Positions 15,142 to 35,064 of a stretch of 64,000 bases of DNA are shown here, piece after piece. The notes beneath the pieces are model-generated. The model saw only the letters and a list, made by a program, of their open reading frames with translations, ran no database searches and was not told where the DNA came from. The position numbers were made by a program, and so were the translations under genes. The stretch is from IMG/VR virus record IMGVR_UViG_3300037502_002993, positions 156,599 to 220,598 of that record. One strand, written 5' to 3'. Source of the stretch: a virus. Positions within the stretch are counted from its first letter, which is position 1, and the number at the start of each line of letters is the position of its first letter.

Positions 15142-15963
15142 ATGAAAACACGCTATTTGAGGGGCACTCGTGCACAGTTAAATGCCCTAAATCTCCCTGA
15201 GGGGAATTTAGCTATTGATGTAGAAACCAAGGCTTTACGGTTCTTTGATGGAGAAACCCAAGGCGGCTTTGAGGTCCTGGGAACACGGGCCTATGAGCCC
15301 TCACCTCCTGGACCCACTGAGTTAATTGCGGGTGATTTAACCACTGGTTTTTATGGCGAGGTGGGGCCTGAGGAGTTCATCACCTACGGTGCCCTGAGTA
15401 CCTTGGTTGGGTTGAGTGCGGGGACCCTCCAGCATGATGCTGAATCCCTCTGGCTGAAGTTCTCCCTCGATGGGTCCCCGCTGTACGTCATGAAGAAGCC
15501 TGCACGACACACGGTGTCGTGGGATCAGCTGCACGCAGCGGGCCTGGTCTTTGGGACCAACACGGTGGAGGTCCAAGGACTCACCTACCAGGTCCGCCTG
15601 CTGCGCGGTGCTGCCTCCGACCCCACCACCGATGACATCGGCTTCGACATCCCCACCAGTCATGGGTCGGAGTGGAACCGGTTACTGTACCCCATCCACA
15701 GTGGGGTCCACACCAACACCAATAACCCCACGGTGCACACTGACCCCACTGCTGCGCCTTTTGGGAGCTGGGCACAGTACAGTGACAGTGATTTGGTATT
15801 ACGTGATACCGACAATGGTCGCCTCACCTGGTGTCAAGAAACCGCCGCCACCAGCACCCAGCGCGTGTATCGTGGTAATCCTGGTGTTACGACCTTGTTT
15901 CGCAATACCTCTTCGACTACGCGTTCGGATGTCGGTTGGAGAGCAGTCCTCGTGCCGGTATAA
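15142..15963 (+). CDS. Tail fibre or tail appendage-like protein
   Basis: 273 aa. The N-terminus (LRGTRAQLNALNLPEGNLAI, then DVETKALRFFDGETQGG) matches the short module found at the start of many phage tail fibre and receptor-binding proteins, where a peptide of the type RGTTAQW...EGEIGVDTDT..FKIGDG precedes a beta-rich shaft. The C-terminus ends RSDVGWRAVLVPV, resembling the conserved final strand GFRPVL found in such proteins. The middle is rich in Thr, Ser, Asn and Pro. A role in host attachment or virion decoration is likely. Its position inside the polymerase and protease operon is unusual for a main receptor-binding protein, so it may be an accessory decoration. Confidence 0.7.
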   Translation: MKTRYLRGTRAQLNALNLPEGNLAIDVETKALRFFDGETQGGFEVLGTRAYEPSPPGPTELIAGDLTTGFYGEVGPEEFITYGALSTLVGLSAGTLQHDAESLWLKFSLDGSPLYVMKKPARHTVSWDQLHAAGLVFGTNTVEVQGLTYQVRLLRGAASDPTTDDIGFDIPTSHGSEWNRLLYPIHSGVHTNTNNPTVHTDPTAAPFGSWAQYSDSDLVLRDTDNGRLTWCQETAATSTQRVYRGNPGVTTLFRNTSSTTRSDVGWRAVLVPV

Positions 15964-26212: not shown

Positions 26213-26611
26213 CTACCACTCCACCCAATTGGGGTTAGAATAACCCTCCTTACCGGTAGTGGGCTGACGAAGTCCCCGAACGTAGGTGTCTTTAATGTTC
26301 TTGGATTGCGTTTCCCACTTGAGGTTACTCTTGGCATTATTCAACCGATCGTCATCTTGATGACATCCTACCTCGCCCGCTTTAGGGGGACCATAGAACG
26401 CACGACAGACTAAATCATGCACATAGCAGAGTTTCCTTCCTTCCCCTACCTTCACACTCACACGACGATACTGCCCCGCAACTCCCCCCAATGTAATCTT
26501 CTCACTCTCCTTAAGAAACACCTCTCCCTTTTTATTGACCAGTACCTGGGGATAGCCCGGCACTGTGTAAAACCCTTTGGGCTTCTCTACCGCCTTGGGT
26601 GTGAAGGCCAT
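26213..26611 (-). CDS. HNH homing endonuclease (free-standing)
   Basis: 132 aa. The HNH_3-type core is visible: VHDLVCRAFYG, then CHQDDDRLNNAKSNLKWETQ and SKNIKD, where the His and paired Asn positions form the beta-beta-alpha metal site. The N-terminal 40 residues (YTVPGYPQVLVNKKGEVF) resemble the short NUMOD4-like strand module that precedes HNH in phage homing enzymes. It lies directly downstream of the major capsid operon and is not inside an intron, so it is a free-standing mobile endonuclease that would target a related phage's allele of this region. Confidence 0.85.
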   Translation of the reverse strand: MAFTPKAVEKPKGFYTVPGYPQVLVNKKGEVFLKESEKITLGGVAGQYRRVSVKVGEGRKLCYVHDLVCRAFYGPPKAGEVGCHQDDDRLNNAKSNLKWETQSKNIKDTYVRGLRQPTTGKEGYSNPNWVEW

Positions 26612-26635: not shown

Positions 26636-26663
26636 GAATGGCCGCCCCGGAGGGCGGCCATTC
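26636..26663. terminator. Long hairpin after the capsid and Ig-like reading frame
   Basis: GAATGGCCGCCC and GGGCGGCCATTC pair perfectly (12 bp) around CGGA. It stands 16 nt beyond the stop of the Ig-like frame, not after the capsid stop, which indicates that the capsid transcript includes the Ig-like sequence. It has no U-tract, so it may also stabilise the mRNA 3' end. Confidence 0.65.
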
Positions 26664-26679
26664 CATGGCACCACTCATC

Positions 26680-26967
26680 TTAGAGTTCCGAATACCGAGG
26701 AGTGCCGTCTTCCGTTGTTCGCATCTCCCCGTCTTCGGTTAACCGAAGCTCTACCACAGTCACCTCGGCTTCCAGTCCAGCCACCCGCAGCGTAACACTA
26801 CCAGGCGCCAGTGCAGTGACCACCCCACTGGAGTCGACAATGGCGGTACCATCATCAGGTTCCAACATCCAAGTAACATCACTCGGAGTGTTTCCCACCT
26901 CATCGGTAAGGGAGAACGCTTGGCTCTCCCCAACGGTCAATGTTACTGCTGTGGGCTCTAAGGTGAG
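26680..26967 (-). CDS. In-frame Ig-like (Big_2) extension behind the capsid stop codon
   Basis: After the capsid stop TAA (26970-26968) the same frame stays open for 95 codons, starting LTLEPTAVTLTVGESQAF. The pattern of V-T-L-T-V-G-E-S, W at the core, D-S-S-G-V-V-T-A-L-A-P-G and S-V-T-L-R-V-A-G is a textbook bacterial Ig-like group 2 domain. The tail (MRTTEDGTPRYSEL) is charged. There is no ATG and no ribosome site before the domain; the first possible start, TTG at 26940, would cut off its first strand. The capsid protein ends in a Pro/Glu-rich linker, as expected before an appended domain. The likeliest reading is stop readthrough giving a minor extended capsid protein. A recently interrupted fusion is the alternative. 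Confidence 0.75.
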   Translation of the reverse strand, partial: LTLEPTAVTLTVGESQAFSLTDEVGNTPSDVTWMLEPDDGTAIVDSSGVVTALAPGSVTLRVAGLEAEVTVVELRLTEDGEMRTTEDGTPRYSEL

Positions 26968-29229
26968 TTAACCCGCAGGCGGCTCTTCTACCGGCTCTTC
27001 CGGAGTGGTCGGAGCTGCGCTGCCACCGCCGATACGGGCGTTGAACTGCGACAGGCTCATGACCTCTTCCAGACCTTCCACGTCGATCTCCAGCGCGAAC
27101 GGGATGTTGTTGACGTGCAGGTTGAAGGGCACGGCGGCGATCTCACGAGAGATCTGACCATGACGAGAGATCGGCAGGTCGGCCACGATGGTCGGCACGT
27201 AGTAGAAGGTACCCCAGTTCAGGATATCGTTCTCCACGGGCTTCTCACGGGTCAGGATGACCACGATCTTACCGTCCATCCGCTCGTTGTTGGTGGCAAC
27301 GATGTCGTACTTCAGGTAGGCACCGAGGGCACGGTCGTCACCAGAGTGCATCAGGTAGTTGGCGATATCAGAAGAGGTCAGGATGACCGCCTTCGGACGC
27401 TCGTCAGCATTGCCGGTGATGGTCTGGAACGCCGCCTGGATGTTCGAGTCGCGATAAGCGGTGAACATCATGGAGCGGATCACGTTCAGGATGGACTCAC
27501 AGACATCCTTGAAGCGGTCTTGGCTCTTGATGGAGTCGACTGCATCACGCAGATCCAGAGACGCATGACGGTAGGTCGGACGCATCACGGCGGACAGAGC
27601 CCCTTCCACCTGACCGAACTTCGGACGGGTGAAACCAGCACCTACGTACTCACGCAGCTGGGCACAGTAGTTCAGCAGGCGAGTCACGGCGTTGGCGGAG
27701 TTGCGCACGTTGGTGGCGGCGGTCAGGAACTTGACCACATCGCCCGGACCGGCTTCGTCCATGGTGGACATCGGCAGGGTGATCGGCGCATGCATCGGGA
27801 TCGGGTAGCGGAACTGCAGGGCACGGGTCTGCAGCAGCTGACCGCGGTTACGACGGTTGGTGTTGGTGAAACGGGCGTCGAGCTCGTAGCCCACCACAGC
27901 CATGTCACCGAGGGCAGTGATCATAGCGGCAACCGCACCGCCGGTCAGGGCCAGAGAGGTACCTTCCTCGTCGTACACGCGGCTGACTTCCACCGGGCTC
28001 GGGGAGAGGTACAGGCTGCCCTTGGACAGGGACACAGTACCGGACATCTGCACGGACACACGAACGCTCCAACCAGCCGGAACGTTTGCCAGGGCAGTGC
28101 CTTCCACGGTGGTGGTGTCGGCAGTGATCAGCAGGTCGTCTGACATGAACGCCAGGTTGGCGTTACGGGTATCAGACTGCAGGGCCGGTTGGAAGACAGC
28201 GGTCGGCATACGGCGCACGTTGAAGCGCACCACGCCATCGCCAGTCTGCACATACAGGCTCTTCAGCCACATGGCGCTGTCCAGGGTATCGGAGATATCC
28301 AGGTAGTGGCCATTCAGCAGCTGCTGCTGGTTGGAGATACCGATCAGGTTCAGCTTGGTGTTCGGACGCAGCGGAGCAGTGCGCACCGGGCCGGTGTTGG
28401 GGTGCTCGACTTCGATCGGCGCGACCAGGCCTGCCGGGATGAAGTACTGGGTGTTGTCATCCTGCTCGTTGACCACCGGGATACAGGCAGTGCTGAAGTC
28501 TTCCAGAATGGACGGATCACGGAAGGCTTCGACCAGGTTGACTTCCTGGGTGTCGAACAGCGCGCCAGTGGTCTGGTGATAGACATCACGCATCACGGCG
28601 ACGTAGGTCAGGTTCTGGGTCACACCACCTTCGGTCGGGTTCACGACCACGGTCGGGTAGGCGGCTTCACCGAAGGCATCCTGACGGGCGGCGGTCAGGC
28701 TGTAGCCGACAGAGACCACACGGAAGTCACGCTGGGACTTCTCGTTGTAGTTCTCCATGGCGGCTTTGGCATCGGAAACGGTCATCAGAGAACCAGCCGG
28801 GCCATCCAGCATCGGACGCACGTTGATCACGTTCGGATCAGCGGATTCCACAGCCACGGCCATCTTGGCCATGTTGTTGCGCCACTGGCGGGCGTTGGTC
28901 AGCGCCGCTTGGGTCAGCAGGGCGGCAGTGATCTGGTTGGAGGCCACGCGATCGGCATCAGCACCACGACCCTGGTTGTAGTGCTCAAAGCCCACGCTCG
29001 GATCACCGAGGATGTCTTCCAGCGCACGGTACATACCCTGGATCTCTTCACCCAGGTGACCATCGACGTCGCCGAAACCTTCCAGGGCGGCGGAGAAGTG
29101 CTCAGCGCCAACGCTCAGTTGACCGGCTTGGGTGCCGTCGATCTGCTCGTAGGACTTGGCGAAGGCGCTCAGGTTAAAGTGGGCAGACGTGCGATCCCGC
29201 TTGCCCATCAGGAAGTTCTTGATGCTCAT
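26968..29229 (-). CDS. Major capsid protein (phiKZ gp120-like)
   Basis: 753 aa from ATG at 29229 (MSIKNFLMGKRDRTSAHFNL), close to the size of phiKZ gp120. The codon usage is the most biased in the window (GC-rich third positions, very long antisense open frames), as expected of the most abundant protein. A helical, acidic N-terminal region ends at AVAVE (residues 124-128), a plausible prohead-protease site of the [AGS]-V-E type. The remainder is the capsid fold with its decorated loops. The C-terminus is a linker, APTTPEEPVEEPPAG, followed by TAA and an in-frame Ig-like domain. Identification rests on size, bias and family resemblance. Confidence 0.88.
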   Translation of the reverse strand: MSIKNFLMGKRDRTSAHFNLSAFAKSYEQIDGTQAGQLSVGAEHFSAALEGFGDVDGHLGEEIQGMYRALEDILGDPSVGFEHYNQGRGADADRVASNQITAALLTQAALTNARQWRNNMAKMAVAVESADPNVINVRPMLDGPAGSLMTVSDAKAAMENYNEKSQRDFRVVSVGYSLTAARQDAFGEAAYPTVVVNPTEGGVTQNLTYVAVMRDVYHQTTGALFDTQEVNLVEAFRDPSILEDFSTACIPVVNEQDDNTQYFIPAGLVAPIEVEHPNTGPVRTAPLRPNTKLNLIGISNQQQLLNGHYLDISDTLDSAMWLKSLYVQTGDGVVRFNVRRMPTAVFQPALQSDTRNANLAFMSDDLLITADTTTVEGTALANVPAGWSVRVSVQMSGTVSLSKGSLYLSPSPVEVSRVYDEEGTSLALTGGAVAAMITALGDMAVVGYELDARFTNTNRRNRGQLLQTRALQFRYPIPMHAPITLPMSTMDEAGPGDVVKFLTAATNVRNSANAVTRLLNYCAQLREYVGAGFTRPKFGQVEGALSAVMRPTYRHASLDLRDAVDSIKSQDRFKDVCESILNVIRSMMFTAYRDSNIQAAFQTITGNADERPKAVILTSSDIANYLMHSGDDRALGAYLKYDIVATNNERMDGKIVVILTREKPVENDILNWGTFYYVPTIVADLPISRHGQISREIAAVPFNLHVNNIPFALEIDVEGLEEVMSLSQFNARIGGGSAAPTTPEEPVEEPPAG

Positions 29230-29331: not shown

Positions 29332-29931
29332 TCAATCCAACGGCAGGGATTTCAGATAATAGGAAAACAAATTGGTCTTGCTCATTCGTTCAAAGGAGAA
29401 CGTGTGCAGGACCTGAGCGATCATCGCATCGAAGAACGCTCGATTGTACGAGAGCTGCATGCTGTCAGGATCGCCTTCTTCATGGCGTGACCTCTGCCAC
29501 ACCACGACCCAGAACGTCTCGTCTACCACATCCAGGGAGTATACAGGAATGGTTACCGCATCTCCCATTTGGAAATCTGTTTCATACCGTAGTTGCAGGG
29601 TTTCTACCCGCTGTTGAACACGATCCTTAAGCGGCTCGTCATCCAGCAGTTGTTTCAGTGGTGAGGGCACCAACTGAATGTCCAGTTCTCGATCAAACGA
29701 GAAGGGGAAGTAACGCATCCCGAGTTCAATATCCGCTAGATCATCCGCACTGAGGACCTTGGTCATGCGGTTGATGGAGCGGAGTTCTTGGAGTGACACC
29801 CCTTCGTCTTTAAGACTTCGGTAGGTGTCATCAGAAATCACCAAGACCTGTGGCATGGCCAAGACTCCCATCGGGGCACCTGCCCCAGTGCATGAAAAAC
29901 AACAGTTGTCATCATACAGTAAGGATTTCAC
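29332..29931 (-). CDS. Protein of unknown function upstream of the capsid gene
   Basis: 199 aa from GTG at 29931. The N-terminus has an odd CFSCTGAGAP stretch; an internal ATG giving MPQVLVISDDTYRSLKDEGV would be a shorter start. It has an acidic, mixed alpha/beta composition with a Trp-rich strand (FWVVVWQRSRH) and no known motif. It is divergent from the helicase gene and lies about 100 nt upstream of the capsid start, so it may share the capsid transcript. A head-assembly role is only a guess. Confidence 0.65.
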   Translation of the reverse strand: MKSLLYDDNCCFSCTGAGAPMGVLAMPQVLVISDDTYRSLKDEGVSLQELRSINRMTKVLSADDLADIELGMRYFPFSFDRELDIQLVPSPLKQLLDDEPLKDRVQQRVETLQLRYETDFQMGDAVTIPVYSLDVVDETFWVVVWQRSRHEEGDPDSMQLSYNRAFFDAMIAQVLHTFSFERMSKTNLFSYYLKSLPLD

Positions 29932-33736: not shown

Positions 33737-34954
33737 TCAAGCAGTGATGTGGTGTTCTTGGATGAACACCGCAGTCAGTGTGTTCCTCAGATGACTCGCT
33801 GGTGGGAGCATGTCGAGCGCCATGTTCCGCAGGTTGATGGCGGCATTGTGGTCTCGATCATGCTGAGTCCCACAACTGGGGCACACCCACCAACGTTGGT
33901 GTAGCTTGAGCTTGTGTTCTTTCTCTAGTCTGTGGTTACACACACTGCATGTTTGACTGCTCGGGAAGAATCTCTCTGCGATGACCACCTTGCAGTGCTG
34001 CGACTCATCGGCCTTGTAGAGCAACATGGACAGGAACTGTCGCCATCCACAGTCAGCAATGTGTTTAGCGAGTCTCCTGTTCCTGACCATGCCCTCAATA
34101 TTGAGGTCCTCAATAGCAATAGTCATGCACTGGTCTACAAGGCTTCTAGAAAGCTTGTGCTGAAAGTCCATTCGACACTGCTTGGTTTTCGCGTATGTCT
34201 TAGCGACTTTCAGCTTTTGCTTTCTGTAGTTAACACTACCTTTCTTTTTCCTAGAAAGAGAGCGTTGCGCCCTCGCCAGTCTCCTGGCATACTGCTCTTG
34301 GTATTTGGGATTGGCATACTCCTTCCCTTCTGAGTCTACCGCAAAGGTCTTGATCCCTAAGTCCAACCCCAAATGTATCTGTCCATTCGTGAGTCGGGGT
34401 TCTACTTCACAAATGAAACAAGCATAATACTTACCATCAGACTCACGAATGATACTACAGGAAGAAGGTTGGGTGGGGAGCACCCCACCCCACTTTTCGT
34501 TCTTGTAACTCCATTTAGTTTTGATAGGGGAATGCATGACTTTAGCCATGCGGAATTCCCCACTCTCCAAATCTAAGGAAAAGGCATCACCTACTAACCG
34601 AATGGATTGACGACTCTGTTTCTTTTTGAATTTAGGAAACCCAACTCTTCCTTTTCCTTTGAAAAAGGATTGGAAAGCTACCCCGAGGTCTCGTAGGGAC
34701 TGTTGCAGTGCGACCGCTGAAACATCATAGAGAAACCCATGTTCTTTCTTTAACTCGGGGAGTCTTACGACGAGTGAATTCGCACTCAGTTTGGGTTTCT
34801 CTAATGTTGGGTTTGTCTGGTAGGCTTTGTATTCCTCTTGTACCCTGTTGAGAACCTGATTCCAGACAAACCGTTTACAACCAAACGACCTCACCAGGAG
34901 GTCTTTCTGCACGACATTCGGATAGATCCGAAAACGAAATGTTTTCGTCGCCAT
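33737..34954 (-). CDS. tnpB: TnpB RNA-guided nuclease
   Basis: 405 aa from ATG at 34954 (MATKTFRFRIYPNVVQKDLL). The full TnpB layout is present: N-terminal wedge/helical domain, then the split RuvC nuclease with D198 in HLGLDLGIK, E282 in IAIEDLNIEGM and a final Asp in HDRDHNAAINL (D368), plus the zinc finger CSVCNH...CPSCG (C336, C339, C358, C361). All catalytic residues are intact, so it should be an active RNA-guided DNA nuclease promoting retention of its element. Length is typical for the family. Confidence 0.93.
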   Translation of the reverse strand: MATKTFRFRIYPNVVQKDLLVRSFGCKRFVWNQVLNRVQEEYKAYQTNPTLEKPKLSANSLVVRLPELKKEHGFLYDVSAVALQQSLRDLGVAFQSFFKGKGRVGFPKFKKKQSRQSIRLVGDAFSLDLESGEFRMAKVMHSPIKTKWSYKNEKWGGVLPTQPSSCSIIRESDGKYYACFICEVEPRLTNGQIHLGLDLGIKTFAVDSEGKEYANPKYQEQYARRLARAQRSLSRKKKGSVNYRKQKLKVAKTYAKTKQCRMDFQHKLSRSLVDQCMTIAIEDLNIEGMVRNRRLAKHIADCGWRQFLSMLLYKADESQHCKVVIAERFFPSSQTCSVCNHRLEKEHKLKLHQRWWVCPSCGTQHDRDHNAAINLRNMALDMLPPASHLRNTLTAVFIQEHHITA

Positions 34955-35064
34955 GGCTGGCCTCCTGGGGAAATGAGTTAGTCTATACATGTGGAGTCTG
35001 GCGATGCAAATCATCCTCTACCTGAAGGAGGAGGCTTTATGACCACTCCTGAACAAAGACCATG

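Follow-up and report, generated by a model that had tools for sequence, protein, structure and literature searches.

The window analyzed here is a stretch of 64,000 bases, bases 156599 to 220598 of a 220,598-base virus record, and it contains a gene for a major capsid protein (MCP) of the phiKZ gp120 type (26971..29229, minus strand). The 753-amino-acid product matches PF25620 (PhiKZ_MCP) with an E value of 7.6e-204 as well as phrog_3231, and it shows 49 to 60% identity with the MCPs of relatives and 49 to 51% with those of known phages. Directly upstream lies a homolog of gp119, the vertex-binding head protein of phiKZ (29335..29931, minus strand; PF25619, E 7.1e-39), in the same order as in phiKZ, and this synteny together with the full-length PF25620 match identifies the protein as a phiKZ-type MCP. 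Judged only by the phiKZ-type MCP, gp119, and DnaB-like genes, the phage would be a member of the Chimalliviridae. The C terminus of the MCP is a Pro/Glu linker, APTTPEEPVEEPPAG, and it is followed by a TAA stop codon (26968..26970, minus strand) with C as the next base; the equivalent codon is TGA in the relatives that bear a tail behind this gene. An HNH_3 homing-type endonuclease gene (26213..26611, minus strand) is found directly behind the hairpin that closes the MCP-Ig region. Broken neighbor genes were considered as a sign of poor assembly, and this was rejected, since what separates the MCP gene from the next core gene is inserted DNA with the HNH endonuclease and small frames and not the remains of a core gene.

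The frame of the MCP remains open for 95 codons (26967..26683), starting at the codon right after the TAA, and it closes at a second TAA (26680..26682, minus strand). The first 72 of these codons (26752..26967, minus strand) encode a Big_2 immunoglobulin-like (Ig) domain (PF02368), which also resembles the Ig domain of the relative L007 described below. Extension residues 2 to 61 match the Pfam Big_2 model with 30.1 bits (cutoff, 22.8) and an E value of 4.7e-7. The AlphaFold2 model of the extension is a nine-strand beta domain with a mean pLDDT above 90 over residues 1 to 70, in which the first strand begins at extension residue 2, and a Foldseek search with the Ig model returned Big_2 domains. 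The score above the curated cutoff and the Ig-type beta-sandwich assign the domain to Big_2, and a complete domain entered in frame at the codon behind the linker and TAA is what the earlier note had described from the letters of the sequence. The Ig domain is followed by a tail of EDG repeats, LRLTEDGEMRTTEDGTPRYSEL (26683..26748, minus strand), resembling the tail found behind the MCP TGA in phiKZ-like phages. Against a hidden Markov model built from the tails of 20 relatives, the final 22 residues of the extension (LRLTEDGEMRTTEDGTPR) scored 19.7 to 23.2 bits, a value reached by none of 6,000 shuffled sequences (maximum, 12.6), which indicates that the Ig domain sits between the stop codon and the ancestral tail in this phage. 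The segment bears no mark of decay: it has no internal stop and no frame break, its Big_2 score exceeds the cutoff, and its tail scores above all shuffles. No other copy of the Ig domain was found in phage records or in the rest of the genome.

The region behind the MCP stop codon was compared among phiKZ-like phages, both known ones and viral contigs. A related in-frame segment is present in 24 of the 24 TGA-ending MCP genes of this clade, consisting of an EDG-repeat tail of 24 to 30 residues in 23 of them and of an Ig domain in 1 (L007). Seven MCP genes end with TAA and carry no segment, no gene has TGA without a segment, and the window MCP is the only one with TAA and a segment. The association of TGA with the segment has a Fisher p value of 2e-6, uncorrected for relatedness; the relatives share ancestry, and the 24 genes are therefore not 24 independent cases. 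In phiKZ, the TGA is followed by AGKGYRYLENGTIRYLEDGNARKLEE (26 residues), which is absent from the annotation of the record. The corresponding segments are TGKGTFRKLENGTTRYLEDGVARRLER in phiHQ, TGKGTFRTLEDGTRRTLQDGQARLLE in Phabio, KGPGNGRRQEDGTYRKLEDGTTQRYLEG in RVTF4, and DGKGNYRYFEDGTRIRYEEDGVARRLER in Viktualia, and in all five phages the tail is followed by a stop codon and a hairpin. L098 and L103, which were fetched once the pattern was known, fit it, with TGA and an EDG tail in both, and L102, which is related to them, ends with TAA and lacks a tail. In Viktualia, CDS0407 (L006 5162-5260), annotated as a hypothetical protein, overlaps the MCP tail but was called in a frame different from the conserved one, which is that of the MCP. 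At L036 4792-5020, the frame stays open for 75 codons past a TAA, probably by chance, and the encoded residues do not resemble the known tails. The earlier note had offered, as the alternative to readthrough, a recent nonsense mutation in a fusion gene; in that case, an ordinary MCP-Ig fusion would have been divided by the new stop codon, and none of these phages would need recoding. The frame and linker are continuous across the stop codon, and fusions of Ig domains to structural proteins are common in phages, as this explanation expects. However, no unbroken fusion of the MCP with the segment was found in any relative, L007 has its stop codon at the same place, and the clade as a whole combines a stop codon with a conserved tail, making a split fusion gene very unlikely. 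Readthrough, by comparison, is favored by the distribution of stop positions, with a stop codon and a conserved in-frame segment in all 24 TGA relatives, one of them with an Ig domain, and with constraint in that frame only.

Several lines of evidence show that the tail is constrained as protein in the relatives. Computed from ten disjoint pairs of relatives, the pN/pS of the tail is 0.47 in the MCP frame versus 1.19 and 1.21 in the other frames, with none of 2,000 null replicates as low, and the constraint persists when only ungapped pairs are used (P = 0.007). The last 28 codons of the MCP, used as a positive control, behave like the tail, and the DNA behind the tail, used as a negative control, does not. 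Insertions and deletions in the tail alignment comprise whole codons. For the window Ig domain, which could be compared with a single distant partner, the third-position excess is 0.72 versus 0.49 and 0.38. In addition, the EDG repeat is the ordinary C terminus of phiKZ gp143 and its homologs (L067, L068, and L073 to L076), a protein classified by PHROG under head and packaging (phrog_2935), and a gp143 homolog with an EDG tail is also encoded by the window phage outside the window (G000:C1, about 117129-117206, minus strand). The products of two head genes, the MCP and the small head protein gp143, would share one C-terminal tag.

If ribosomes began anew past the MCP stop, by coupling or reinitiation, and made the Ig domain or tail as a protein of its own, they could use the ATG that L007 has in frame two codons past its TGA and the purine-rich GGAAAGGG or AAGGA found behind many of the TGA codons. 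Nevertheless, among 21 EDG tails checked, 14 lack any ATG, GTG, or TTG and no start is common to the tails, so independent initiation cannot explain these 14, and the ATG of L007 is spaced only about 1 nucleotide from the purines. In the window, the absence of an ATG and of a Shine-Dalgarno site for a separate Ig start, asserted in the earlier note, was borne out; the first in-frame start-type codon is the TTG at 26940, ten codons into the extension, and it was rejected as a start because it falls inside the second beta strand of the domain. A separately initiated protein is accordingly given very little weight.

The extension with its stop codons (26680..26970, minus strand) is predicted to be strongly structured as RNA, with a z score of about -4, the second lowest in a comparison with 101 gene segments of the window. 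The strongest-folding coding RNA among these 101 segments (z, -5.4) is 34028-34318 (minus strand), within the gene for a TnpB-like protein (OrfB_IS605 with a Cas12f1-like TNB domain; 33740-35014, minus strand). The Ig segment of L007 also folds at about -4. A strong hairpin, GAATGGCCGCCCTCCGGGGCGGCCATTC (26636..26663, minus strand), lies behind the stop codon of the Ig frame at 26682-26680 and not behind the MCP stop, in agreement with the reading of the transcript end in the earlier note, and it occupies the same relative position as the hairpin behind the tail in relatives. It was not scored as a terminator because it has no T run. The structure of the extension RNA, compared in two sequences, may represent a 3' element stimulating readthrough or a structure of a 3' untranslated region. 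A conserved RNA structure behind the stop codon of the relatives was also considered, and the small 5-bp stem found there, with weak covariation, was not convincing. Retention of the segment as RNA, as a 3' untranslated structure or the approach to a terminator, rather than as protein, would suit the strongly folded Ig segments of the window and L007 and the small stem behind the TGA. This explanation is improbable in view of the synonymous excess confined to the MCP frame, the whole-codon indels, the homology with the gp143 C terminus, and the folded Ig domain.

The stop codon itself separates the window from the rest of the clade. The TGA of the clade is followed by a purine in 23 of the 24 genes, and UGA followed by A is a known leaky stop context in bacteria. 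TGA is a minority stop codon in phiKZ (10 of 60). The window has neither feature, its stop being TAA followed by C, and TAA is the commonest stop codon of this genome (101 of 193). A recoded genetic code or a phage with a suppressor tRNA was rejected, given that all three stop codons are in ordinary use and that a search of the 220-kb record yielded no suppressor tRNA. ARAGORN called a single tRNA there, a tRNA-His (15658-15734, minus strand) that lies within an ORF of the plus strand. Because UGA is the conserved codon and the other TAA alleles of the clade, seven of seven, have lost the segment, the UAA of the window stands apart and may be read weakly or be switched off. Hence, of the suggestion in the earlier note of an ochre readthrough system, the kind of mechanism, in-frame readthrough, stands, and the ochre codon finds no support in the relatives.

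The most serious competing explanation accepts the cassette as real in the family and holds that a change from TGA to TAA has only recently switched it off in the window phage, which would then no longer make the Ig domain, or that the A arose from faulty assembly or base calling and the true codon is TGA. In its favor, the segment is missing from all seven other TAA relatives, the sister L033 included, the window alone keeps a segment behind TAA and is one base from the family state, and TAA is the stop codon most used in this genome. On the other hand, the Ig domain and tail are undecayed and the RNA that follows the stop codon folds strongly. The MCP copy number of SPN3US, which has the same T number (T=27) as phiKZ, is about 1,560 per shell (PMC5694885), and at that number a readthrough of 1% would yield about 16 extended subunits; even a readthrough of about 0.1% at UAA would still place one or two copies in each shell. 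A second contig of the window phage, with either the TAA or the TGA allele, was searched for and not found, and a scan of genome contigs found no relative. Taken together, an off-switch or sequence error is a substantial possibility that falls somewhat short of an even chance. As no other TAA allele retains the cassette, readthrough in the window may persist at a very low level, may have disappeared recently, or may be hidden behind a miscalled base; it is probably weaker today than in the relatives or was given up not long ago, and the odds that the TAA allele is still used are about even.

Based on these comparisons, the Ig frame of the window is, with a probability of roughly three in four, the downstream part of an MCP stop-readthrough cassette that is conserved in phiKZ-like jumbo phages. 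The composition of the extension, an Ig domain together with the ancestral tail, points to such a cassette rather than to a randomly broken fusion gene. Under the readthrough model, most ribosomes would stop and release the 753-amino-acid MCP. In the family, a minority would pass the leaky UGA and add the short EDG tail, giving a few tailed MCP subunits, and in the window phage readthrough would yield an MCP-linker-Ig-tail fusion on a few subunits. Readthrough as the route, incorporation of the product into the virion, and a role of the Ig domain in surface binding are all predictions from sequence.

The L007 MCP is 60% identical to that of the window and ends with DTTTP-TGA; an in-frame Big_2 domain (36.7 bits) comes next, and after it about 130 further residues. 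The two Ig domains are 43% identical and align in a gapless register from the stop codon. In a tree of the MCPs, the closest partner of the window is L033 (TAA, no segment), the two lying next to the phiKZ group, and L007 pairs with L009 and L031 (both TAA, no segment). The Ig domain was either ancestral and often lost or gained twice by exchange, and the HNH endonuclease gene downstream could promote such exchange. A search for further Ig-bearing MCP loci returned only L007 again and L071, a contig of 4.5 kb on which the Ig domain has unrelated surroundings.

In-frame tails of other kinds occur behind TGA in more distant relatives. Serratia Moabite-like phages have a tail of the form (T/A)L.EAFE..L.GFDPA, Erwinia EaH1 has TPLSQAIVNPQLNGFTKP, L034 and L037 have tails with ...DGFNEFGA and ...GGFSEHGS, and Goslar and SNUABM_54 also have short in-frame tails of another kind. 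GF-motif tails (SGFDPA, NGFTKP, DGFNEF, and similar) were observed at L034 4777, L037 4786, L041 3376, L043 3250, L044 3355, L077, L078, and L080. The MCP genes of SPN3US, RAY, FLC6, and Vibrio XC32 end with TAA and have no tail. For the GF tails, third codon positions differ most in a comparison limited to three Serratia phages, which is thinner evidence than that for the EDG tails. Considering together the EDG tails of the Pseudomonas group, the Ig domain of L007 and the window, and the unrelated GF tails of the Serratia, Erwinia, and Escherichia relatives, it is likely, with slightly less confidence than for the cassette itself, that phiKZ-like jumbo phages in general use programmed readthrough of a UGA at the end of the major capsid gene, an overlooked feature by which each shell would receive a fixed, small number of modified subunits.

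If this is true, a fixed, small share of the subunits in giant capsids is modified. The capsid of the model jumbo phage phiKZ has been solved, and the shell gene of this phage seems to encode a longer second product, before the end of which both annotation and structure building stop. The phiKZ capsid structure (8y6v) contains the 747-amino-acid MCP without a tail, and a minority extended product would leave that structure unchanged. The window and L007 would provide an example of such a cassette acquiring a new display domain. No report of phiKZ MCP readthrough was found in the literature searched, a claim to novelty limited by the fact that the main phiKZ capsid paper was outside the search, and no description of in-frame UGA recoding for the shell of a tailed double-stranded DNA phage was found there.

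A known case is the A1 protein of the RNA phage Q-beta, where the coat gene closes with a leaky UGA and a few subunits receive an extension in the same frame. The present case differs in that it concerns a tailed double-stranded DNA phage with a phiKZ-type MCP, that the extension is an EDG tail or an Ig domain, and that the window has UAA. Ig-like C-terminal extensions are produced by programmed frameshifting in the coat protein of T3 and in coat or tail proteins of Lactobacillus phage A2 and Listeria phages A118, A500, and PSA (PMC5009743). As would be the case in the window, a minority of a major structural protein is extended by recoding at the end of the gene, often with an Ig-like domain (PMC5009743); however, the window extension lies in frame 0 behind a stop codon, with no change of frame, and does not belong to the frameshift class. 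The T7 coat gene likewise gives a minority C-terminal extension of the shell protein by frameshifting (PMC5009743), but that extension, in addition to its different mechanism, is unrelated in sequence and not Ig-like. phiKZ gp120 agrees with the window in gene, in position, and in having a related tail, and it differs in having TGA and 26 residues where the window has TAA and an Ig domain plus tail of 95 residues.
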